Notes under the pieces: generated by a model
Seen by the model: the letters and a program-made list of their open reading frames with translations, nothing else
Told to the model about the DNA's origin: nothing
Database searches by the model: none
Part shown: positions 1 through 62,878 of the stretch, piece by piece
How positions within the stretch are numbered: the stretch's first letter is position 1
Layout of the letters: every line of letters begins with the position of its first letter
Position numbers and translations under genes: made by a program
NCBI RefSeq assembly: GCF_032341995.1
Contig: NZ_CP135439.1
Span: 124,001 to 188,000 of the forward strand
DNA from: Domibacillus sp. DTU_2020_1001157_1_SI_ALB_TIR_016
GTDB taxonomy: Bacteria > Bacillota > Bacilli > Bacillales > Domibacillaceae
Direction: 5' to 3'
DNA length: 64,000 bases

Positions 1-643
1 CCGTTTGTTCAGTAATGCGGATGTGATCAAATTGAACAGTGGCGCCCGATGCCTGAAAACCGATTCGGCCGTTTTGAAGCGATGTTGCCGCATCTGTGTT
101 GATAACGAGCTGGCCATTTATAAATTGCTGTACGCGGTTTCCTTTTGAGATGATTTTCAGCTTGTACGTTTTGTTGTAAGCAAAAGCCTCGCTGTAAGGG
201 GCTTTGTTCAGCACAGACCATTGATTGTTTGCATTACGAAGGGCAAATTCAACGCCATTTAGCGCCTGGGCACCGCGGCGGACAGCCATTTGATAATAAG
301 GATAGTCATTGCCCTGTACGCGATACATAATCGATGCCCAGCGTGTATCTTCAACAGCGGATAAAAACGTCATATCGGCTTCAATCACATAGTCACCGCC
401 AGAAACAGACGAAGGCGCAAGCACGCGAGCGGGCTTTGAAGAAGAAGGAGATGATAAAACAAGGGCACCGTTTTGAACAGAAGCTTGCCCCTGAATCACT
501 TCCCAGCCAGCCGGCAGTGAAGACGCATCGAAGGATTCCTGTAAAACAGGCTCTGCTGCCAGCGTCTGGACGGGTGCCCACTCATTGGCGCTTAATAAAA
601 AACCAGAAGCTAAAAACAAGGGAACAATTTTTTTCTTTTTCAT
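1..643 (-). CDS. Secreted protein, N-terminal part (runs off the left edge)
   Basis: The reading frame opens with ATG at 643, seven bases after a GGAGG, and stays open to base 1, giving about 214 codons; the rest lies outside the window. A Lys-rich N-terminus, a hydrophobic stretch and an A-E junction near residue 30 look like a Sec signal peptide. The mature part has the alternating beta-strand pattern of a concanavalin-like (DUF1080/LamG-type) domain, with phrases such as GRIGFQASG and VQFDHIRI. This kind of domain is often an N-terminal carbohydrate- or surface-binding module of a larger exoenzyme; the catalytic part, if any, is not visible. Exported location is likely, the function unknown. 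Confidence 0.7.
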   Translation of the reverse strand, partial: MKKKKIVPLFLASGFLLSANEWAPVQTLAAEPVLQESFDASSLPAGWEVIQGQASVQNGALVLSSPSSSKPARVLAPSSVSGGDYVIEADMTFLSAVEDTRWASIMYRVQGNDYPYYQMAVRRGAQALNGVEFALRNANNQWSVLNKAPYSEAFAYNKTYKLKIISKGNRVQQFINGQLVINTDAATSLQNGRIGFQASGATVQFDHIRITEQT

Positions 644-794
644 CCTAATCCCTCCTCAAATAAACTGCTTCTTTATTTTGGCAGGGGATTATTAACAGAG
701 TGTGGAGGAAAAAATAAGTTAACAAAAAAGACGAAAAATTCGTTCTTTTTTCCTGATAAATAAAAAAGAAACGCCGCAGGAAAGGATATTCACA

Positions 795-862
795 TGTGGA
801 TAGTATGATAAAATAAGGATGAGCAAAAGGAATGTTAATATGTGGATAACTTCTGTGGATAA
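795..862 (+). promoter_or_regulatory. DnaA-box cluster upstream of rlmH
   Basis: Three 9-mers in one orientation: TGTGGATAG at 795-803 (one mismatch) and TGTGGATAA at 841-849 and 854-862 (both perfect complements of TTATCCACA). The last two are 13 bp apart. In B. subtilis a DnaA-binding cluster lies near yydA (rlmH) and helps restrain initiation; the same role is inferred here from position and sequence. The boxes also lie just ahead of the rlmH start and could affect its transcription. Confidence 0.75.
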
Positions 863-898
863 GCTGTTCGTAAATTGTTTGTAAAGTGGGGTCAAATT

Positions 899-1378
899 GT
901 GAATATCTCGATTATAACAGTAGGAAAATTAAAAGAGAAGTACTTGAAGCAAGGCATAGATGAATATGTGAAACGATTATCTGCTTATGCAAAAATCGAT
1001 ATCATCGAAGTTCCGGATGAAAAAGCACCGGAAATATTAAGTGAAGCGGAAATGAAACAGGTGAAAGAAAAGGAAGGCGAGCGCATTCTTGCCAAAATCG
1101 GCCAGGACACCTACGTGATCGCTTTGGCCATCAATGGAAAAATGAAATCTTCTGAACAGCTTGCTGCCGATCTTGATAAGCTCGCTACTTATGGCAAAAG
1201 CAAGATTGCTTTCGTGATCGGCGGATCACTCGGACTGAGTGACGCCGTTTTAAAGCGGGCAGATGACAAGCTATCATTTTCTCCGATGACTTTTCCACAT
1301 CAGCTTATGAGACTCGTTTTGGTTGAGCAGATATACCGGAGTTTTCGGATAAACCGCGGTGAACCGTATCACAAATAG
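899..1378 (+). CDS. rlmH: 23S rRNA (pseudouridine(1915)-N(3))-methyltransferase RlmH
   Basis: RlmH methylates N3 of pseudouridine 1915 in helix 69 of 23S rRNA on assembled 70S ribosomes, using SAM in a SPOUT knot. The 159-residue product from the GTG at 899 has the exact family length and begins like other RlmH proteins ([19 protein letters not shown]); an in-frame TTG at 875 would add eight residues not found in the family. The knot region has [13 protein letters not shown] and the C-terminus is [10 protein letters not shown]. The gene stands alone, and its last 20 bases are nearly repeated at 1551-1570, as at SCC integration sites. Confidence 0.97.
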
Positions 1379-1570
1379 TGGTAAAGCAGCCAGTAGAAGT
1401 AACTCTAGATAAGGAAATATTAAAGAGGCTAACTCAAACTAAAGGAGACCGACTATAACATATACGGTCTCCTTTAGTTTTCTTTAACCTGTATAACTTT
1501 ATTATACATAATGATGAAAAACAAGTTTGTATATATTATCAATGAATGTAGTGAACCGTATCATAAGTGA
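1359..1570 (+). repeat. Direct-repeat pair at the rlmH 3' end, SCC-like attachment sites
   Basis: Copy 1 (1359-1378) is the last 20 bases of rlmH including its stop; copy 2 (1551-1570) matches it at 16 of 20 positions, with the first 13 identical, and the differences are mostly third-codon-position or stop-codon changes (both copies read E-P-Y-H-K-stop). This is the pattern left where large serine recombinases of staphylococcal SCC elements integrate at the rlmH 3' end. The 172 bp between the copies hold only a hairpin at 1438-1478 and no gene, so the element, if there was one, is now empty. Confidence 0.6.
1438..1486 (+). terminator. Rho-independent terminator downstream of rlmH
   Basis: A 14 bp perfect stem, 1438-1451 with 1465-1478, has a 13 nt loop and is followed by TTTTCTTT. 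It lies between the two rlmH-end repeats. Confidence 0.8.
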
Positions 1571-1614
1571 AAGAAAAGGCAAACTCGGCGACAATCCGCA
1601 GCTTCTATGAAATA

Positions 1615-1655
1615 AAAACTCTTCCTGACCTACACGAAAAGTCAGGAAGAGTTTT
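1615..1655. terminator. Bidirectional terminator
   Basis: The stem AAAACTCTTCCTGAC (1615-1629) pairs with 1641-1655; A and T runs on the two sides let it work in both directions. It ends the minus-strand BCCT gene whose stop is at 1682. Confidence 0.85.
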
Positions 1656-1681
1656 ATTTACCTTTTAAAAAGTGCGCTGTT

Positions 1682-3187
1682 TCACTTACGGCTATTTTGT
1701 GTGTCATACTCGCTCTTTAAACCTTTGAGCAGAGAGAAGGACATCAAAACCAAGATAATAGCAAATGGGAGAGCGGCTGCGAGAGATGCGGATTGCAGGA
1801 CATTTAGTCCGCCAGCGAAAAGCAATACAGCTGCTACAGCAGATTGAATAATGCCCCATGTTACTTTGATTCTGTTGGAAGGGTTCAATGTGCCGCCTTC
1901 GCTTAGCATTCCCAGCACAAAGGTTGCAGTATCGGCAACTGTTATATAGTAAATGGCTACAACGGTAAAACCAATGACGCTTAACAGAAAACCTAATGGA
2001 AGCTGATCAAAAAATGTAAAGATAGACAAATCTACGTTATTTGCGATGGATGCTGCCAGATCATCGTTTCCTTGTACAAGATCCAGCGCAGAGCCGCCAA
2101 AAATAGACATCCACAAGCATGTTCCAAGGGTTGGAACAATCAACACACCAATAACAAACTCCCTGACGGTGCGTCCTCTTGAAACGCGTGCGATAAACAT
2201 ACCGACGAAGGGTGCCCAGGCGATCCACCATGCCCAGTAGAATAATGTCCAGGAGGCAATCCAGCCGTCTCCTTCACTGAATGGTGTTAGTCTTAAGCTT
2301 AGATGCAGAAAATCACTAAGATAAAGACCCGTTGTATTAAAGAAGACTTTAACAATAGTCAGGGTAGGGCCGACAATCAAAACAAGCAGCATGATCAAAA
2401 AGGATAGGATCATAGCGCCATTAGACAAGTATTGGATCCCTTTGTCTAACCCTGTATTGATTGAAATGATAAAAATGACCGTTGCAACAGCAATAACAAT
2501 CAGCTGCACGAATAATTCATTCGGAACTCCGAATATGTGATGCATTCCGGCCGTTATCTGCATGGCACCAAGGCCTAAAGATGTTGCGATACCGAAGACC
2601 GTTGCAAAAATGGACAGGATATCAATTGTTTTTCCGATCGGTCCATAAATTCTGTCACCCAATACAGGATAGAATGCGGAACTGATCGCTGCCGGAAGCT
2701 TTTTGTTGTATTGGAAAAAGGCAAGTGCCAACCCAATTACAGTGTAGATCGCCCATGGATCCAAACCCCAGTGGAAGAATGTATATTTCATGGCGGTATT
2801 GGCTGCTTCAGCTGTAAACCCTTCCCCAGTGGGAGGATTTGTGTAATGGGTTACTGGTTCGGCAACACTCCAGTAAACAATCCCAACTCCCATTCCAGCT
2901 CCAAACAGCATAGCAAGCCAAGATCCGGTGTTGAAATCCGGCTTGTCTGTTTTTTTACCAAGACGGATACTGCCGTATTTAGAGAAGAGTATATAGATGG
3001 AGAAGATTACAAAGAACAGGGTCGCACTAAGATAAACCCACCCAAAGTAGTCAATTGCCCCAGTATAAATGATATTCGTTACATCGGTGAGGCTGTCTTT
3101 AAAAAAGACGCCCCAGATAATAAAGATTAGCGTGATTAATAAAGAAATAATAAAAACAGTATTACCCGTTTGTTTTTTACTGCCCAT
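1682..3187 (-). CDS. BCCT-family osmolyte transporter (OpuD-like)
   Basis: Twelve-helix secondary transporter that probably takes up glycine betaine or a related trimethylammonium compound with Na+ for osmoprotection. The 501-residue product carries the glycine-rich GAGMGVGIVYW segment of TM3 (residues 96-106) and the aromatic WTLFYWAWWIAWAPF segment (313-327) that forms the betaine cation box in BetP/OpuD. An AGGAGGT precedes the ATG at 3187. The next gene upstream on the same strand begins 50 bp away and may be co-transcribed. Substrate cannot be fixed from sequence: choline or carnitine carriers share these motifs. Confidence 0.92.
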   Translation of the reverse strand: MGSKKQTGNTVFIISLLITLIFIIWGVFFKDSLTDVTNIIYTGAIDYFGWVYLSATLFFVIFSIYILFSKYGSIRLGKKTDKPDFNTGSWLAMLFGAGMGVGIVYWSVAEPVTHYTNPPTGEGFTAEAANTAMKYTFFHWGLDPWAIYTVIGLALAFFQYNKKLPAAISSAFYPVLGDRIYGPIGKTIDILSIFATVFGIATSLGLGAMQITAGMHHIFGVPNELFVQLIVIAVATVIFIISINTGLDKGIQYLSNGAMILSFLIMLLVLIVGPTLTIVKVFFNTTGLYLSDFLHLSLRLTPFSEGDGWIASWTLFYWAWWIAWAPFVGMFIARVSRGRTVREFVIGVLIVPTLGTCLWMSIFGGSALDLVQGNDDLAASIANNVDLSIFTFFDQLPLGFLLSVIGFTVVAIYYITVADTATFVLGMLSEGGTLNPSNRIKVTWGIIQSAVAAVLLFAGGLNVLQSASLAAALPFAIILVLMSFSLLKGLKSEYDTQNSRK

Positions 3188-3236
3188 AGAAACCTCCTAG
3201 TAGTTAACAGGCCTTAATCTCAGCTTGTGAGACTAA

Positions 3237-3905
3237 TCACATATTGAGGAGATGATAAACAACTTCCCATTTATTTGAGTCCGACAACTCATCCAGCGGA
3301 ACTTCTAAACCGCCTCCAAGATATATCGTTTGGCCCTTGATTGCGATAACCATCGCTTCCAATAACTCATCGTCGACTTTCTTTCGATAAATGCTTCCTA
3401 CTCTTGGCAGCTGCTCAATGCTGGTGGTCACGACAGGACCAAGCGCGCTGTCATCTAAGTTCTCCTTATCCACACCTTCCATACTCTGGTAATCGATAGG
3501 ATTGCTGTTATCAGCACGGCCAGGTTCCATTACAAGGTATTCATAATGCTTGAGCCCGTGGGAATTATTCGTAGTGACCCCATATTTGTCTGATGATTCC
3601 ACCACATCAATTTCATTCAACGAGTATGTGTCCAAGGAATCAGGCTTCGGATTATGTATTAAAACATGATCGCCTTCCTCAGCAGTCCTTTTGCTGAGCG
3701 TATAGACATGACGATTGAAGACAAAGCTGTCATGTTCCTTTGGTTTGTATTTTTCTACACTTGCTGCCGTCGTTAACACCTGTGTTAAATCCCTCAGTCT
3801 GATAGCGTGAACGGATTGCTTATACATCTGTTTAACCCCGTATATCCGATGTAGCTCATTGTTATAATATACAAACTGTCCTTTTCTTATTTGATAAAGT
3901 TTCAC
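3237..3905 (-). CDS. Conserved hypothetical protein upstream of the BCCT gene
   Basis: 222 residues from a GTG at 3905 preceded by AAGGGAGA; a longer TTG start at 3923 would swallow this site. There is no signal peptide or membrane segment. The N-terminus (KGQFVYYNNELHRIYGVKQ) and the C-terminal 50 residues (GSIYRKKVDDELLEAMVIAI) each look like a small beta-barrel of SH3 or KOW type, joined by an acidic polar middle with many D and N residues. I do not recognise a named family. The close tandem position to the transporter suggests a linked role in osmotic adaptation, but that is only context. Confidence 0.75.
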   Translation of the reverse strand: MKLYQIRKGQFVYYNNELHRIYGVKQMYKQSVHAIRLRDLTQVLTTAASVEKYKPKEHDSFVFNRHVYTLSKRTAEEGDHVLIHNPKPDSLDTYSLNEIDVVESSDKYGVTTNNSHGLKHYEYLVMEPGRADNSNPIDYQSMEGVDKENLDDSALGPVVTTSIEQLPRVGSIYRKKVDDELLEAMVIAIKGQTIYLGGGLEVPLDELSDSNKWEVVYHLLNM

Positions 3906-3923
3906 GGATAATTCTCCCTTCAA

Positions 3924-4321
3924 GCTTATTTCTTAAGTCAGGATTATAAAAACATGAGGATTGCACAACCTCCATCATCATTAGGGTCTCTTTATACCCG
4001 AAAATTATGATGCATAAAAGTAATAGGTAAATACATTACGAAAAACTGAAAGATATAGTATTTTATGCTCACTACAATTTTATATCCTCTTGAGAGCGTT
4101 CATTGGTCCTAAAAGTAGTGCCCGCCAATGAATCATGGATTATAAAACCAATTTTTCACAAGAACCCTTCTCTTAAAATAAAATTAGGATTAGGGTTCAT
4201 ATATATATGGAAATAAAAATTTTGTATTCAACTACACATTCAGCAAAACGATAGGGCTTTTACATTGTTTTACTTAAAGAGGGAACGTACAGGAATCGGC
4301 GCTTAACCGGAAAAAACAACA
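3924..4321. other. AT-rich intergenic region, no gene seen
   Basis: About 400 bp between doxX and the minus-strand 3905 gene. It should carry the promoter for the 3905-1682 pair. An inverted repeat (TTCATTGG at 4099-4106 with CCAATGAA at 4125-4132) lies in the middle and could be an operator or a remnant; no open frame with a ribosome binding site was found. Confidence 0.5.
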
Positions 4322-4349
4322 AAAAGCTGACCTTTTTCGGTCAGCTTTT
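4322..4349. terminator. Terminator downstream of doxX
   Basis: AAAAGCTGACC (4322-4332) pairs with GGTCAGCTTTT (4339-4349); A/T runs on both sides. Read on the minus strand it closes the doxX transcript. Confidence 0.85.
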
Positions 4350-4352
4350 TTA

Positions 4353-4754
4353 TTACGGAGTATAAATTAAAACGTACTCACCCGGCCCGATTAAAGCCAC
4401 GCCCATGGCTGCTGCAATCAAAACGAGATTGTATTCAAACCCGCCGTTTGTCATCCAATAGCCGTTTTTGCCATGAACCGCAAAAATGGCATCAATCATT
4501 ACAATGACAATCATAATTGCGCCGAGCCAGGTAAGAAAGCCGGCAGCAAACAGCAGGCCGCCAATGAATTCAAACAGTCCTGCCAAGGCAGCCCACACCT
4601 TTGCGCCCTCTTTGATACCGATTGACTCGAGCCAGCTTCCCGTTCCGGTAATACCCGTACCTCCGAACCAGCCGAACAGCTTTTGGGCACCGTGTCCGAC
4701 AAAAGTTAATCCAATGACAAGTCGAATGATTAATAGTCCAAGATCTGCCGCCAT
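4353..4754 (-). CDS. DoxX-family membrane protein
   Basis: 133-residue four-helix membrane protein of the DoxX family. It shows the family's first helix with GHGAQKLFGWFGG (residues about 20-32), then an amphipathic segment and three more helices ending in GEYVLIYTP. DoxX relatives in Bacillus (CatD, MhqP) accompany catechol or quinone stress enzymes and related proteins elsewhere are linked to thiol redox balance; a substrate is not known. The start ATG at 4754 follows GAAGGAAGAAG. The gene appears monocistronic, with a terminator directly downstream. Confidence 0.88.
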   Translation of the reverse strand: MAADLGLLIIRLVIGLTFVGHGAQKLFGWFGGTGITGTGSWLESIGIKEGAKVWAALAGLFEFIGGLLFAAGFLTWLGAIMIVIVMIDAIFAVHGKNGYWMTNGGFEYNLVLIAAAMGVALIGPGEYVLIYTP

Positions 4755-4856
4755 ACTTCTTCCTTCTTTCAGTCAATGTATTTTCAAAAGACATAATGGT
4801 TCTGATCAAAAACAAACAGATAACTTATTGTGAGGAAGCAAGACAATGTTTATGCC

Positions 4857-5801
4857 CTACATCAATAAAGAGATGTAAACCGGCAAGGAAACTAGGGATA
4901 AAACAGTACTAATAACAAAAGAAGAAGCCGTTTCTGTACTCAACGAATCAAAACGGGTTGAAATCATGGCTGCCACAGCGGAACCCGGGAATGACACAAG
5001 CAAAATGGCTTTGACTGTATCTGCATGATTAATACCAACCATATGGGCTACGGCAATCATGAATAATGGAATCGCCACAACCTTTAAAATAGAAATGCCA
5101 AATGAAATGGCTTTAAAGCTGATTTTGCGGATACCAACTGTGACACCGACAGCAAATAGCGCAACGCCGGATGTAACAGATCCAATCTGGTCAAGGGCAT
5201 CCTTTACGAGATCCGGTGACTGGAAGCCGAATAATGTCAGCACGACGGCAGCAAGCGGGATACAGGCAAGCGGTTCGCTCAGGCCATGAAGAATAATGCC
5301 AAGCGTACTTGATTTCTCCTCTCCAGATGCGCTGCTGCCTTGTCCGATTGTCCCCACGATTGTCGCTAAAGGATCCAGGAGGGCATTCACGACAATTCCC
5401 GTCACAGCAATGGGAATCGCCACTTCCTGGGCTCCAAATAAGCTTCCCAGCACAGAGATGCCCATAAAAGCAAATGCCGGCTGGGTTGAGTTGAGTGAAA
5501 ACATGGATGCTTTTGTTAAATCATACTTAAACCCAAAACGAGCAATCAATAAAAGAATCATATAAAAGCCGATAATACCAATTGTCATCGTTAAGAAGAA
5601 AGGCCACTGGTCTATCAGCGTTTGTTTAGGCGTTGATGTGATGCCAATAAAGAGATGGGCCGGCAGGGCAAACTTCGTTACCAATGTATTCAGGCCTTTA
5701 GAGGAATCGGCATTAAATACTCGAAAATAACCGCCTAAATAACCGAGTATAATCGTAAAAAAGATAGGAACCAACGTTAAGAAAATACTGCTAATACTCA
5801 T
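4857..5801 (-). CDS. AEC-family (auxin efflux carrier-like) transporter, possible malate permease
   Basis: About 314 residues, with the ten-helix pattern of the AEC/MleP family: N-terminal TLVPIFFTIILGYLGGYF, a polar mid-loop (GQGSSASGEEKS) between the two halves, and the C-terminal helices. Family members in Firmicutes move malate or malonate. The gene follows NAD-malic enzyme on the same strand with a 117 bp gap, which supports malate uptake or malate/lactate exchange. The start is uncertain: the ATG at 5801 and an in-frame GTG at 5810 both have weak Shine-Dalgarno sequences. Confidence 0.85.
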   Translation of the reverse strand: MSISSIFLTLVPIFFTIILGYLGGYFRVFNADSSKGLNTLVTKFALPAHLFIGITSTPKQTLIDQWPFFLTMTIGIIGFYMILLLIARFGFKYDLTKASMFSLNSTQPAFAFMGISVLGSLFGAQEVAIPIAVTGIVVNALLDPLATIVGTIGQGSSASGEEKSSTLGIILHGLSEPLACIPLAAVVLTLFGFQSPDLVKDALDQIGSVTSGVALFAVGVTVGIRKISFKAISFGISILKVVAIPLFMIAVAHMVGINHADTVKAILLVSFPGSAVAAMISTRFDSLSTETASSFVISTVLSLVSLPVYISLLM

Positions 5802-5918
5802 TCTATACACACTTCACTTTCAGAATTTCTCTTTAAACAGGCACTTGATCGGCCTGCTCGAAAGGAAAGAGCTTGTTCATCTTTCCTCTTTTATGAGCAT
5901 CCGGATCAATAAAACTTT

Positions 5919-7616
5919 TTACTTTTTGTAAATAATTTCTTTGTACTCAGGCTTCCATACATCTTCTATGACTGCTTTTTCAATCGCAGCCATATCCGCT
6001 CCAGCTATTCCTTCCGTTACAGCCGTTTTGGCTACCTCGAGCGCCACAGATCGAGAGACCTCCTGCAGCTGATCGATAGAAGGCAAAAGAGAAGCGCCAG
6101 GCTTGCTTGTATTTGATGATTGGGCGACTGCGGCTGCGGCTGCAGCAAGCATTCCTTTGGAGATTTTGGCTGCTTTGGCCGCAATCGCGCCTAATCCAAG
6201 TCCAGGGAACACAAAAGCATTGTTGGATTGCCCGATTTCATACGTTACACCGTTATAGGATATATCCTCAAAGGGGCTTCCTGTTGCGATCAAAGCTCTG
6301 CCTTCCGTCCAGGCAAGTAAATCTGCCGGTACAGCTTCTGCTAAAGGAGTCGGGTTCGACATCGGCATAATAATCGGACGCTCCACATGCTTGGCCATTT
6401 CCTGAATGATTTCTTTTGAAAAAGCGCCGGCTTGTCCGGAAGTACCAATTAAAATGGTTGGCTTGACCTGTTTAATCACTTCCATAAGCGGGATGATGCC
6501 ATCTTCGCTGCGCACCCAGGTTTTTACTTCTTCTGCTTTTCGTGTGTATGGCTGTTGGAATGGAAAAACATCCGTCATAAGATCGGTTAACAAGCCGCGG
6601 TAGTCAATAGCCCAGAATTGATTGTATGCCTCTTCTTTAGACATGCCCTCCAGCACCATTGCTTCTGCCATTTGATCGGCGTTTCCAATTCCTGCAGCGC
6701 CAGGGCCGAATACAACAACCCGCTGTTCGGTTAACGGAACACCTGTTACCTTCAGGGCAGACATTACAGCAGCAAGGGTTACCGCACCAGTACCTTGTAT
6801 ATCATCGTTAAACGTTAAAATGGAATCACCATACTGATCGATAATATTGCGTGCGTTCACGTTTCCAAGGTCTTCCCAGTGAATGAGCGCTTCAGGGAAG
6901 AATTGCTGGCAATTGGAAACAAACAGATCAATCAATTTGGCGTACGTTTCACCGCGGACACGGCTAAATTTGTTGCCAACATAAAGCTCATCATGAAGAA
7001 GGCTTTCGTTATCCGTTCCAACGTCGAGTACAACAGGAAGAACGCGGCTTGGATCGATACCGGCCGCCGCAGTGTAAACAGCCAATTTACCAATCGCAAT
7101 ATTAATTCCGCCTACACCTTGATCTCCAATACCAAGAATGCTCTCAGAATCTGTTGCCACAATTAAATCGATGTCATTTGCAGCGCAGTGAAGGTTTTGA
7201 AAGGCTTCTTCCATTTCTTCCATATTATCAACCGATAAGTATAATCCCCCTGGACGGTGATATTCGTGGGAATACTTTTGAATCGATTCACCGACAGTCG
7301 GCGTGTAAATGATTGGCAGCATTTCGCTGAGGTGATCTTTCAGCAGACGGTAAAACAGAACAACGTTACGGTTATATAAATCATGAAGCAGGCCGTTTTT
7401 GCGAATGCTGCTTGATTGAGCAGCAAATTGTGTATACGCCCGCTTTGCCTGCTGATCAAGTGTCAGTACCTGAGGGGGAAGTAATCCCTCAAGCCCAAGT
7501 TCTTTTCTCTCTTTCTTTGTAAAAGCCACCCCTTTATTGATAAAAGGGTTTAAAAGAACCTCTTTTCCTCTCAAAGAGGTTTCCCATTTCATATTTGTTT
7601 TTACTTCCGTGGTCAT
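5919..7616 (-). CDS. NAD-dependent malic enzyme
   Basis: Oxidative decarboxylation of L-malate to pyruvate with reduction of NAD+. The 565 residues match the length of B. subtilis MaeA and MalS, and the key features are present: the catalytic-tyrosine segment [10 protein letters not shown] (101-110), metal-ligand segment HWED (246-249), the NDDIQGTG signature (270-277) and the dinucleotide-binding GPGAAGIG (304-311). ATG at 7616 follows GGAAGAAGGAAT. With the AEC carrier downstream it forms a malate use module. Which of the MaeA/MalS/MleA paralogues it represents cannot be told. Confidence 0.95.
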
Positions 7617-8007
7617 TTCTATTCCTTCTTCCTATCTGTTTGGCGGCAGTGTCCATTTCTGTCTTCAGGCACGCTGGCTTTTCGTGCATCCAATGAGCCG
7701 GGCCTTACTCCTACTTTTCGGAAGCCTTTTTCCTTGCTTTTATGTATGCCTTCCATTTTAACCAGCGTTATGAAAAGTGAGCCAGCTTGGGTACGGGGCT
7801 GTAAACCAATTTAATGGTCAGTAAGTAGTAAAGGAAATTTTCTTAAAATGCTCATATTCCAATTGTTTGATCTTAAAGCCAAAACGAGTGCACGACAGCA
7901 GCCGGCCTTTTTAAAAAGTGCCGCCTTTAAGTACTATTATGAACCCCAGGATAAAATTTGTGAAGTAGTAACACTTTTTTATCCTTGTTTCTTTTATATA
8001 CTTATAT
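7617..8007. other. Divergent intergenic region between malic enzyme and the HxlR gene
   Basis: About 390 bp with no supported gene. The left end should hold the minus-strand malic enzyme promoter; the right end is AT-rich and leads into the plus-strand promoter at 8008. No riboswitch-like structure or clear operator palindrome was recognised. Confidence 0.5.
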
Positions 8008-8036
8008 TTGAAAACGATTCCAAGTTATGATATGAT
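8008..8036 (+). promoter_or_regulatory. SigA promoter of the tandem HxlR gene
   Basis: TTGAAA (8008-8013), 17 bp spacer, TATGAT (8031-8036). The predicted transcript start near 8043 rules out the upstream TTG at 8008 as translation start, although the frame is open there. Confidence 0.8.
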
Positions 8037-8085
8037 CGATACAAGATGGACAGGTATGTTTAAAAAAGTTAAAGCAGGTGGAAAA

Positions 8086-8739
8086 TTGGATTACAAGGAT
8101 CAAGTTTGTATAGAATTGACACCATTGGAGATGATGGTCGGAAAGTGGAAGCCCATTATTGTTTTACATTTGATAAGAGAAGGAACAAAGAGATTTAGCG
8201 AACTGCAAAAGTTAATACCCGAGATTAACAAAAGAACACTCACGCTTCACTTGCGTGAATTAGAAGAGCAGGACATCGTGCAGCGGGTCGTTTTTCCAGA
8301 GGTTCCGCCCCGCGTAGAATATTCAATTACAGAGCATGGAAAAACACTCCATCCGGTTTTGCTTCAAATATATGAGTCGGAAGTAAAGCGTATCGGGGAT
8401 ACTGAAGCCGAAAGAGATATAAGCAAAATATTTACGGCCCTTGAAGCAAGAGTGGGGAAATGGAAGCCGATTCTGCTTTTACATCTGCTAAAAGGAGGCA
8501 CAAAAAGGTTTAATGAATTACATAAACTGGTGCCTGACATAAGCAAAAGAATGCTGACCGTGCAGCTGCGAGAATTAGAAAGCAGGGATATTGTCCTTCG
8601 GGTTGTGTATCCTCAAGTTCCGCCTAAAGTGGAATACTCCATTACAGAACACGGAAGAGAACTTCAGCCCGTTTTAGAAGCCATGCATACGTGGGGAAAA
8701 GCTCATATCGAACATATGAAAAACAAGGCTTTTCAATAG
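8086..8739 (+). CDS. Transcriptional regulator with two fused HxlR domains
   Basis: 217 residues containing two complete HxlR-type winged-helix domains in tandem, each with the pattern [24 protein letters not shown]. The domains are alike throughout ([20 protein letters not shown] against [20 protein letters not shown]), so a duplication and fusion is clear. HxlR proteins normally bind DNA as dimers of one-domain chains, and HypR of B. subtilis senses disulfide stress through an N-terminal Cys. Here Cys8 is kept in domain 1 but domain 2 has none. The TTG at 8086 is chosen because AGGTGG lies four bases upstream and ATG 8056 is too close to the transcript start. It converges on a HypO-like nitroreductase, a probable target. 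Confidence 0.9.
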
Positions 8740-8908
8740 AAGAGATAAAAAAAGTTTTTGCGCATTAATGGCAGAATTTAATGGAAAAGCATCATCTTTT
8801 CTGGTAATTTTTCAGACTGTTGGAAAAGTTCTTTCGACGCTTTTCATTGTGTTGTATAAAAAAATAATCGGCCATCCTTATATAAAGTCAAGAGTGCACT
8901 CCAATAGG

Positions 8909-8946
8909 AAGCCGCCTGTGGAAGAAAATCCACAGGCGGCTTTTTG
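8909..8946. terminator. Convergent-gene terminator
   Basis: GCCGCCTGTGGA (8911-8922) pairs with TCCACAGGCGGC (8929-8940), followed by TTTTTGC; it lies between the convergent HxlR and nitroreductase genes. Confidence 0.85.
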
Positions 8947-8959
8947 CTGCACAGCTTTT

Positions 8960-9637
8960 TTATTCAATCCACTGAACAATATCATTCATGTCTTTTCTTG
9001 TTTTTGGACGCGGCTCGTTCTTGCGGTAGCCGAATGAGACCATAACAGAAATCGCTAAATGATCATCTTCAAGCAGATTTTCTTCTTTAAGCAGCTTTTG
9101 TACTTTTTCAAAATGGAAGCCTTCAATCGGACATGAATCAATGCCGATCAAAGCGGCAGTCGTCATCATATTGGCCATCGCAATATACGTTTGTTTCCCA
9201 GCCCAGTCCAGCATGGTACGCTCGTTTTCTAAAAGGTTAAGATCTTCTTCCTGAAAAGATTTGTACCGTTCTTTAATTTTGTCAAAGAGCTCAGGCGGAA
9301 ATTTCTTTACGTTCAGCATTTGATTCTTCACATAGTCTGAATCATACTTTGTATCTTTGATCGTTCTTGCCAAAATCACGACAAAGTGGCTTGCGGTCGG
9401 CAGCTGCCCTTGTGCTCCCCAGGAAAATTCACGCAGTTTTTCACGCAGCTCTGGATTTTGGATCACTAAAAACTTCCAAGGTTCATAGCCGACAGAGCTT
9501 GGAGATAAGCGGGCTGCTTCTAAAATCAGTTCAAAATCTTCTTTCGGTATTTTTTTCGTTGGATCAAATTCTTTTGTGGCATGTCTAAATTCGAAAGCCT
9601 TTAAAATGTCCTGGTGTGTAATAGAAGAGTGGCTCAT
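8960..9637 (-). CDS. NAD(P)H-dependent nitroreductase (YfkO/HypO-like)
   Basis: 225-residue FMN nitroreductase-family protein, probably a homodimer that reduces nitroaromatics or quinones with NAD(P)H. The family start FRHATKEFDP (17-26), the FMN-binding RLSPSSVGYEPWKF and the PIEGF segment near residue 170 closely follow B. subtilis YfkO (HypO), which HypR activates on hypochlorite or diamide stress. ATG at 9637 is preceded by AAAAGGAGTATTC. The adjacent HxlR-type regulator makes a HypR/HypO-like pair likely. Confidence 0.92.
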   Translation of the reverse strand: MSHSSITHQDILKAFEFRHATKEFDPTKKIPKEDFELILEAARLSPSSVGYEPWKFLVIQNPELREKLREFSWGAQGQLPTASHFVVILARTIKDTKYDSDYVKNQMLNVKKFPPELFDKIKERYKSFQEEDLNLLENERTMLDWAGKQTYIAMANMMTTAALIGIDSCPIEGFHFEKVQKLLKEENLLEDDHLAISVMVSFGYRKNEPRPKTRKDMNDIVQWIE

Positions 9638-9954
9638 ATACTTGAATACTCCTTTTTATAGCATGTTTTTTACCCACATATTGTGCCCGTGAGTGGATGG
9701 ATTATGATGATGATCAGTATAAATAATGAACGGGCGAAAGGAAAATAGTTTGCTCAAAAGAGAAGGGATGGAAAGGGAGGACGGAGAAAAGAAAAGGAGT
9801 GGGCTGTCAGTATCTCTTGGCGTAAATTTCCTTGTGAAAACAAAAGAGAATATAAGTTTATGTCCACAGAAAAGAGGGTAGGTAAAGACAGGCCTATTTT
9901 ACTCAATCAAGGACAGGCTTACAAGCGTTATAGACTGAAAAAGGACGTGGAAAC
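9638..9954. other. Divergent intergenic region, purine-rich middle
   Basis: 317 bp between nitroreductase and yhcX starts. A purine-rich tract runs from about 9752 to 9805, and two near repeats (AGACAGGCCT and GGACAGGCTT, about 9888 and 9911) lie before yhcX. No gene was recognised. Confidence 0.4.
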
Positions 9955-11502
9955 GTGTCAGAGACCGATATGTCAAAATACGAGAAAAAAATTATCGTGC
10001 GAAATATACGTTATGAAGATATTGATGAAATTATGAAGCTGTGGGGCCGCTGTTTCCCGGGCATGGAGCCATGGAAGCGGGAGCAGCTGGAAAGTCATAT
10101 CCACATTTTTCCTGAAGGTCAGTTTTGTGTAGAATATGAGGATAAAATTGTGGGCTCCTGCTCAAGCCTGATTGTTAATTTTGACGAGTACGACGATCAG
10201 CACACGTGGAACACGATTACAGACAATGGATATATTACAAACCATGATCCCAATGGTTTTAACTTATACGGTATTGAAGTGATGGTAGATCCTGAATACC
10301 GCCGGATGAAAATCGGGCACCGTCTTTATGAAGCGCGGAAAGAGCTCGCCCGCCAGTTAAATCTTCAAAGCATCATTATTGGAGGGCGAATTCCGAATTA
10401 TCATAAATACAAGTCGGAGATGACACCGCGTCAGTATGTGGCGGCTGTTGAAAAGCACAGCATTTATGATCCGGTTTTATCTTTCCAGCTTCTTGAAGGA
10501 TTTACGATTAAGCGTATTAATACGCGATATCTTCCGGACGATGCAGCGTCCGATTCTTTTGCTACATTAATGGAATGGAACAACATTGACTACCTGGCCA
10601 AGTCGCGGCGTGTATACCGCGCGTCTTTCCCGGTAAGAATTTGCGCGATCCAATATATGATGAAAAAAATTGATTCCTTCGAGGATTTTGCCCGCCAGGT
10701 AGAGTACTACGTAGATGTGGCTGCTGATTTCGGGTCTGACTTCGCTGTTTTTCCTGAGCTGTTTACGACACAATTAATGTCGTTTCTCGAAGAAAAGCGG
10801 CCGGACCGCGCTGTCCGCCGTCTGGCTACGTACACAGACCAGTACATCGAATTGTTTACGGAGCTGGCTGTCCGCTATAACGTAAACATTATTGGCGGCT
10901 CCCACTTCGTTGAAAGCGAAGGCAATATTTACAACGTAGCTTATTTATTCCGCCGCGACGGAACCATTGAAAAACAGGAAAAAATTCATGCAACGCCAAA
11001 TGAGCAAAAGTGGTGGGGAATTGCGGAAGGAAACAAAATTGAAGTATTCGATACGGATTGTGGAAAAATTGCCATCCAAATTTGTTATGATATTGAATTT
11101 CCAGAGCTTGCCCGCATTGCCGTTGACCAGGGAGCCAACATTATTTTTGTTCCGTTCTGTACAGACGACCGCCAAGGATATCTTCGTGTCCGCTATTGCG
11201 CCCAGGCACGGGCTGTCGAGAACCAGGCCTACATTTGTATTGCCGGAACGGTCGGCAACTTAACCCATGTAGAAAATATGGACATTCAGTACGCACAATC
11301 GGCCATTTTCTCTCCTTCTGATTTCGGATTTGCAAGAGACGGAATTGTAGGAGAATGTGATGCGAACGTAGACACGGTTGTGGTAGGGGATGTGGATCTG
11401 GAAAAGCTGAGAAGATCCCGGAACGCCGGGTCGGTCAGACAGCTGCGCGACCGGCGCCGTGACTTATACCGAATTGAACTGAATCAATTAGAATCAGAGT
11501 GA
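9955..11502 (+). CDS. GNAT acetyltransferase fused to carbon-nitrogen hydrolase (YhcX-like)
   Basis: 515-residue two-domain protein. Residues about 14-200 form a GNAT fold with the acetyl-CoA loop RRMKIGHRLY (116-125); residues about 226-495 form a nitrilase-superfamily amidohydrolase with the Glu-Lys-Cys triad at E268, K343 and C377 (IQICYDIEFPE). The same fusion exists in B. subtilis YhcX, whose substrate is unknown. The GTG start at 9955 follows AAGGA with nine bases between and gives the family N-terminus. Monocistronic, with a terminator 26 bp downstream. A role in amide or N-acyl metabolism is inferred. Confidence 0.93.
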   Translation: MSETDMSKYEKKIIVRNIRYEDIDEIMKLWGRCFPGMEPWKREQLESHIHIFPEGQFCVEYEDKIVGSCSSLIVNFDEYDDQHTWNTITDNGYITNHDPNGFNLYGIEVMVDPEYRRMKIGHRLYEARKELARQLNLQSIIIGGRIPNYHKYKSEMTPRQYVAAVEKHSIYDPVLSFQLLEGFTIKRINTRYLPDDAASDSFATLMEWNNIDYLAKSRRVYRASFPVRICAIQYMMKKIDSFEDFARQVEYYVDVAADFGSDFAVFPELFTTQLMSFLEEKRPDRAVRRLATYTDQYIELFTELAVRYNVNIIGGSHFVESEGNIYNVAYLFRRDGTIEKQEKIHATPNEQKWWGIAEGNKIEVFDTDCGKIAIQICYDIEFPELARIAVDQGANIIFVPFCTDDRQGYLRVRYCAQARAVENQAYICIAGTVGNLTHVENMDIQYAQSAIFSPSDFGFARDGIVGECDANVDTVVVGDVDLEKLRRSRNAGSVRQLRDRRRDLYRIELNQLESE

Positions 11503-62265: not shown

Positions 62266-62310
62266 AAGCTGCACGATAAGGAGTCTTGCTTCTTATCGTG
62301 CAGCTTTTTT
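62264..62310. terminator. Bidirectional terminator, yycB-like / shikimate kinase
   Basis: AAAAGCTGCACGATAAG (62264-62280) pairs with CTTATCGTGCAGCTTTT (62292-62308). Confidence 0.92.
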
Positions 62311-62878
62311 ACTTATGATTCGGTTCGTATAATTCCCATGTGTATTTAAGAGAATCAACAATAAAGTCGGCTACTTCTTCTGCGGAACGATGACGAACCG
62401 GCAGTGTAGAATGGTGAATGGCGTACGCGCTCTGCCGTTTGTAAAACAGCTCTTTAATTTCATCTATGCTTTTGCTTTGAAGAACAGGACGGGTATCGAC
62501 CAAAAGATCAAGGCGTTCTTTCCATTCTTCCCAATCTACATCCAGATAAAAAACGATGCAATGATCCAGGCATGCTTTTCGGATTTCAGGGTTTAAAAAA
62601 GCACCACCGCCGATAGACAGAACTTTTAGCTTTTCCTGGGCAAGAGAGCATGTTTTCTTCTGTTCATATTCCCGAAAAAACGGCTCGCCTTGCTCGGCAA
62701 AAATTTGGGGAATGGTCATGCCAAAATCTTTTTCAATTTCCTGATCTACGTCAATAAATGTTCGGTAGAGTTTTTTTGCAACCAGTTCGCCGATCGTCGT
62801 TTTGCCGACGCCCATAAAACCGATCAATACAATGGATTTCTGTCTTGCCGGTATCTGTAAATGGTTCAATCGAAACAC
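62309..62878 (-). CDS. aroK: Shikimate kinase
   Basis: 189 residues; P-loop GFMGVGKTT (20-28), DVDQEIEKDFG (shikimate/Mg binding), GGGAF and the lid Arg in DTRPVL. Phosphorylates shikimate at O3 in the chorismate pathway. The start is either GTG 62878 or TTG 62869, both near AAAGGAAAGA. It is alone on the minus strand, away from other aro genes. Some 15 residues longer than the usual 170 at the C-terminus. Confidence 0.93.
   Translation of the reverse strand: MFRLNHLQIPARQKSIVLIGFMGVGKTTIGELVAKKLYRTFIDVDQEIEKDFGMTIPQIFAEQGEPFFREYEQKKTCSLAQEKLKVLSIGGGAFLNPEIRKACLDHCIVFYLDVDWEEWKERLDLLVDTRPVLQSKSIDEIKELFYKRQSAYAIHHSTLPVRHRSAEEVADFIVDSLKYTWELYEPNHK

Follow-up and report, generated by a model that had tools for sequence, protein, structure and literature searches.

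Staphylococcal cassettes (SCC), some of which carry antibiotic resistance, have their ccr recombinase genes in internal positions. The crossover made by large serine recombinases (LSRs) takes place inside an attachment core and swaps the core halves. Comparable elements have also been described in other genera. The Enterococcus cassette chromosome (ECC) occupies the rlmH 3′ site with a TATCATAA core, has ccrAB-type recombinases and an average size of 42 kb, and a remnant with both attL and attR is present in BM4105-RF, according to the portion of that report used here (PMC6222049). Islands with LSR, helicase, and Pol-SSB genes are located downstream of rlmH in Bacillus and other Bacillota, and their second ends were located via the last ~12 bp of rlmH (PMC10061031). 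Composites are noted in the portion of that article used here, and the same portion mentions neither a core inside a recombinase gene nor gene-less units (PMC10061031). The original prediction for the locus described below points to its occurrence outside staphylococci, which is not new as such, given these two reports for Enterococcus (PMC6222049) and Bacillota (PMC10061031). The locus lies in a 64,000-nucleotide stretch of a Domibacillus genome (hereafter the window).

Repeated rlmH ends in the window

The last 20 bp of rlmH recur 192 bp downstream, and the gene and the two copies are positioned as follows.

899–1378, + strand: rlmH, the host gene with the insertion site at its 3′ end (Pfam SPOUT_MTase PF02590, E 7e-62, residues 1–158)
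1359–1378, + strand: copy 1, the rlmH-proximal attachment core, TATCACAA variant
1551–1570, + strand: copy 2, the distal attachment core, TATCATAA variant, the form of most surveyed rlmH genes

Copy 1 reads GTGAACCGTATCACAAATAG (1359–1378) and copy 2 reads GTGAACCGTATCATAAGTGA (1551–1570). They are identical at 16 of 20 positions, and at 15 of the 16 over the first 16 bp, and each encodes EPYHK-stop in the rlmH frame. The letters, spacing, and identity reported in the original prediction are all confirmed. When the 500 bp 3′ of rlmH were Markov-shuffled 20,000 times, 16/20 over 20 bp was attained in seven shuffles and 15/16 over the first 16 bp in one. The unit is inserted at the rlmH 3′ end and is bounded by direct rlmH-end repeats with the TATCAxAA core, as this core is given in the portion of the ECC report used here (PMC6222049). 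The protein encoded by rlmH shares 98% identity with that of Domibacillus sp. PGB-M46 (G008), the nearest named rlmH.

A larger SCC-like island, extending from 1551 to 62309, was considered and dropped; its second site is inverted, and genome-wide matches are near the control level. This second site (62309–62326, minus strand) has two mismatches to a pattern derived from copy 2, and the same pattern has 17 genome-wide matches with up to three mismatches, compared with 10 for the reversed control. It looks like a chance match, located within an unrelated gene or at its end.

rlmH-end cores in other genomes

A degenerate codon pattern of EPYHK-stop was used to scan the first 20 kb (or the available contig) after rlmH. 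At the 57 loci (of 61) for which 1.5 kb or more was available, 27 exact distal cores were found on the rlmH strand and none on the other strand, and reversed and complemented control patterns had no exact matches. With up to one mismatch, the counts were 44 and 1, respectively. A further 75 named loci, most of them covering 10 kb of downstream sequence, brought the survey to 136 genomes including the window (five of 80 were dropped as identical to genomes already present). This larger set has 48 exact cores on the rlmH strand and none on the other (78 and 1 with up to one mismatch). Tandem rlmH-end cores are common in the order, as at least one exact distal core is present in 35 of the 136 genomes surveyed, the window among them. 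The original prediction named, as a result that would refute it, that relatives all share the 192-bp spacing. This is not so; the 78 core-to-core intervals have a median of 3,477, and all but that of the window are longer than 192 bp.

Arms with the left end motif TGGTAAA, as found in the window, are referred to as class A. A third arm type, with [AG]TG[AC]GGTTTTT on the left, is present in many rlmH downstream regions (L074, L099, L064, L131), and AAACC[TG]CA is found at most 40 nt before 25 of the 78 distal cores; this type looks like the SCCmec inverted repeats. Many surveyed Bacillaceae sites have arms of the TGAGGTTTT/AAACCTCA type, the type of SCCmec, and the window arms differ from these.

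Recombinases at rlmH

Of 61 genomes, seven have a PF07508 gene no more than 20 kb downstream of rlmH (G008, G019, G024, G027, G041, G052, and G060), and the one in G024 has an internal stop. In G008, the closest relative, the rlmH core and a distal core enclose 5.4 kb with a CcrB-like LSR inside. Insertions of this kind, between the repeats and with a large serine recombinase, are what the original prediction had proposed to look for in relatives. Its reading of the repeats as SCC-like attachment cores is supported. The G008 protein is a 569-residue serine recombinase with Resolvase, Recombinase, and zinc-ribbon domains. Its best NCBIfam model is CcrB (335 bits, cut-off 900), which is also the best match of all five further recombinases (270–411 bits). 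The recombinases at rlmH are CcrB-like, and not CcrB by the NCBIfam equivalog cut-off. Of 397 genomes of the order, 55 contain a match to the CcrB-like query with an E-value of at most 1e-60.

In 24 of 30 LSR loci, the 3′ end of the recombinase gene itself coincides with an rlmH-end core. These 30 are the ones most similar to the G008 protein among 58 listed places, with no control set of unrelated recombinases. The other six have no core within the limits. L243 was scored on the neighbouring recombinase, as the query match there is broken. The core is on the gene strand in five of the 24 loci, of which four stop at the core's own TAA and G008 reads on, and on the opposite strand in 19. A second recombinase class (L070, L071, L069, L072, and L073) lies on the opposite strand, facing rlmH, with the 3′ end over the core. 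L072 has class A and class B elements in tandem.

Contents of the 192-bp unit

The original prediction held that nothing but a hairpin lies between the two copies. The hairpin is real; the interval also contains a recombinase-tail frame and a right arm, both common to other genomes. Among the loci compared below, L148 is Bacillus sp. NTK074B, and G290 denotes the same genome.

1379–1385, + strand: TGGTAAA, left end motif of class A arms, common to arms of other genera
1378–1458, + strand: tail (C-terminal end) of a CcrB-like serine recombinase, comprising 26 codons plus a stop, without any recombinase body (from the profile of other genomes' arms)
1436–1480, no strand: terminator-like hairpin, apparently kept from a fuller cassette (from its fold, z −7.3, and the stem sequence in other loci)
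1493–1499, no strand: putative deletion junction, where both cargo genes seen in the fuller cassette are absent (from the ends of L148 homology)
about 1499–1550, + strand: right arm of the cassette, with a degenerate end motif TTATCAA at 1536–1542 (from L148 and G067 matches)

Copy 1 is followed by TGGTAAAGCAG and then by the same frame as in the arm adjoining rlmH in other genera. The reading frame of the tail is open from 1363 and crosses the core in frame (ACC GTA TCA CAA ATA GTG ...), and its translation resembles the tails of other arms. Arm profiles were built from other genomes, with the window left out. A profile of eight such arms matches window positions 1363–1455 with E 1.2e-13, core residues included, and an 11-arm profile without the core-encoded residues gives E 1.2e-6, with the next best window segment at E 6. 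Codon positions 1, 2, and 3 of the tails have 3,460, 2,252, and 4,096 pairwise differences, respectively, a modest third-position excess only. No recombinase gene is present in the interval; where SCC would have ccr, the tail alone is found. The window's own 5.1-Mb genome has no PF07508 match. A remnant of a recombinase body to the right of copy 2 was considered and dropped, as class B and class C arm profiles have no significant match in 1379–1800.

The hairpin folds with an MFE of −28.2 kcal/mol over 1420–1500 (z −7.3), and its stem sequence is common to the window, L148, G067, and G162, and largely to G349. Rfam has no matches in window positions 1–4000. The end motifs, TGGTAAA at 1379 and TTATCAA at 1536 (TTACCAA in L148), are candidates for the terminal inverted repeats of an SCC-type cassette; they are short, with one base degenerate.

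Copy 1 has CACAA, and copy 2 has CATAA, the usual rlmH form. The base that distinguishes these forms is C in 26 of 35 class A arms compared with 14 of 123 other rlmH ends, a contrast biased by the sample, as some 20 of the 35 arms were gathered by similarity to the window. In the 136-genome survey alone, it is C in 9 of 15 class A arms. These letters fit an element-derived copy 1 and an old rlmH end in copy 2.

A fuller cassette in other genomes

In L148, a 1.5-kb interval at rlmH contains glyoxalase-family and AraC-family genes without a recombinase, and G067 has the same cassette at rlmH with both cargo genes present. The left arms of the window and L148 are identical at 122 of 152 positions, 20 nt of rlmH context included, and the rlmH genes themselves are 72.5% identical. 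Overall, the left arm is 79–81% identical to those of G290, G162, G067, and G349. In G162 and G349, it (79–80%) precedes genes similar to the cassette cargo, and rlmH was not found beside these two arms by tblastn in the stretches covered.

For the right arm, 77 distal right arms from elsewhere were compared with that of the window; L148 scores 28 and the next best 14. With the targets cut to their final 100 bp, the match is firm, as the observed score was reached in none of 5,000 shuffles for L148 and in five of 5,000 for G067. Against the whole cassette, the match is marginal (28 versus a best of 27 in 1,000 shuffles for L148; 24 versus 23 for G067). The right arm was independently recovered by a whole-genome search (E 4.6e-10 in G290 and 1.5e-6 in G067), and its location at the very end of the cassette provides a further argument that the match is probably genuine. 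The left part of the L148 homology stops at about 1493 and the right part starts at about 1499. Of the fuller cassette, the left end survives in the window as far as the bases just past the hairpin, and about 50 bp survive at the right end. In four loci of other genomes, this hairpin and the stretch beyond it recur at the cargo operon's end and 3′ flank. Compared with the L148/G067 kind of cassette, the unit has the shared left arm and a shared right arm, the latter weaker in the whole-cassette control, and the glyoxalase-family and AraC-family cargo genes are absent from the window.

Between L148 and G067, identity is 91% for the cassettes (1,454 of 1,599 columns) and 71% for the rlmH genes, which implies that the cassette has probably moved between lineages through transfer between hosts. 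The same cassette with cargo was not found in a close relative; a 220-bp query matched none of the eight other same-genus genomes drawn, apart from G008, in which the match covers the first 34 bases only.

Genes beyond copy 2

Directly after copy 2, window positions 1645–4029 contain a BCCT transporter gene (PF02028) and a second gene without a Pfam match. This 2.4-kb unit is 92% identical in G010, where it is on a different contig from rlmH, and has no match in G008. It may have been brought to rlmH. The possibility that it is a core-bounded cassette was considered and dropped, as no third core was seen by eye before 4305; the pattern scan, which covered 20 kb from the end of rlmH, also found none. 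In the region 4305–11500, synteny with G008 and G010 is back at about 4305–4342 and again at 8955–8959, and the intervening window genes are either absent from G008 and G010 or located elsewhere in them. In L050, a degenerate core GAGCCCTGCCATAAATAA with one mismatch (6490–6507) lies 15 bases before the synteny between G008 and the window resumes.

A probable gutted cassette and its rivals

The best explanation for window positions 1359–1570, in which we have considerable confidence, is a gutted, non-autonomous SCC-like cassette. By sequence, the 173 bp between the cores consist of both ends of a cassette that occurs elsewhere at rlmH with two cargo genes and no recombinase. A CcrB-like recombinase supplied in trans would have inserted this cassette by crossing the rlmH 3′ end with a matching core on a circle. 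The core half 3′ of the crossover and the recombinase tail would have stayed at rlmH, with EPYHK-stop preserved, and the native rlmH end would have been pushed outward to become copy 2. The cargo would later have been lost through an internal deletion that spared both ends; alternatively, the ancestral cassette may never have held cargo. The unit is presumably unable to move unaided because the genome has no PF07508 gene. Both cores keep the TATCA centre, and they might still serve an incoming recombinase. The original prediction had suggested the scar of an excised or deleted Ccr-type element. Clean excision is disfavoured, because one core would be expected and two are present; what stands is a probable gutted cassette with both of its ends.

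A different origin, as the remnant of an autonomous G008-like element that lost its recombinase body and kept its ends, is unlikely. Such an element is present in the closest relative, and the recombinase tail is encoded by the left arm. However, the best match of the right arm is the L148 cassette, which lacks a recombinase (28, with 14 for the next of 77), and not the G008 and G052 body ends at the distal core, and the left tail is by eye closer to L148 than to G008. Somewhat less likely again is a cassette that was minimal and without cargo from the start, namely a two-end miniature moved in trans, MITE-like but with serine recombinase cores. Although the two cores and two arms, which are all that is needed, fit within the shortest of the 78 intervals, the unit has no second copy in its own genome and no equally short counterpart in the 136 genomes, and its hairpin and the stretch beyond are shared with the cargo-operon end and 3′ flank in four loci of other genomes. 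Chance, or a simple local duplication of the rlmH end without recombination, is scarcely credible given the shuffles, the strand-specific recurrence of cores in many genomes, and the homologous arms, despite the shortness of the repeat and its 4 mismatches in 20 positions.

A gutted cassette at this locus would extend SCC-like cassettes at rlmH to Domibacillus and would represent a concrete case with identifiable fuller relatives. It would also provide a non-pathogenic setting for SCC-type cassette movement without an own recombinase.

A core inside the recombinase gene

It is conceivable, if somewhat doubtful, that the rlmH-targeting CcrB-like family has its own attachment core in the 3′ end of its gene, such that the integration state is written into the C-terminus and possibly acts as a direction switch. 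Because the G008 and G052 bodies end at the distal core in matching phase, the tail is probably the far end of a recombinase gene split from its body by integration. In the circle form, the core would read CAA (Gln), and the protein would be extended by a conserved tail some 20 residues long. Upon integration, the chromosomal TATCATAA would supply an in-frame TAA, and the tail would be severed and left beside rlmH. The tail in the window would then be half of a gene of this kind, orphaned from the rest. No uninterrupted gene with both body and tail was found, and the full-length form is inferred. A core at the recombinase gene's own 3′ end is possibly new; a literature search for serine integrases with attP inside their own gene found no relevant title, as judged by titles. 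If the core belongs to the gene, integration would alter the recombinase C-terminus, and these loci would offer a testable case of such an alteration.

Comparison with known systems

Staphylococcal SCC, including composite and pseudo-SCC elements, are similar in their insertion at the rlmH 3′ end, the direct rlmH-end copies with a TATCAxAA core, the tandem cores, and the existence of recombinase-less versions. In addition, the recombinases of the related loci are most similar to NCBIfam CcrB. Unlike SCC, the window has no ccr or cargo gene, the recombinases of the related loci reach 270–411 bits against the CcrB cut-off of 900, and their gene lies at the element end, over the core. The ECC, as described in the portion of its report used here, is similar in its rlmH 3′ site, its TATCATAA core, its ccrAB-type recombinases, and the existence of a remnant, whereas it averages 42 kb with ccrAB and the window unit has no genes in its 192 bp (PMC6222049). 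The LSR/helicase/Pol-SSB islands share the site downstream of rlmH and differ in having primase and helicase genes, again according to the portion of that article used here (PMC10061031). Taken together, these comparisons place the window unit as a new, extreme variant of SCC-like rlmH elements.
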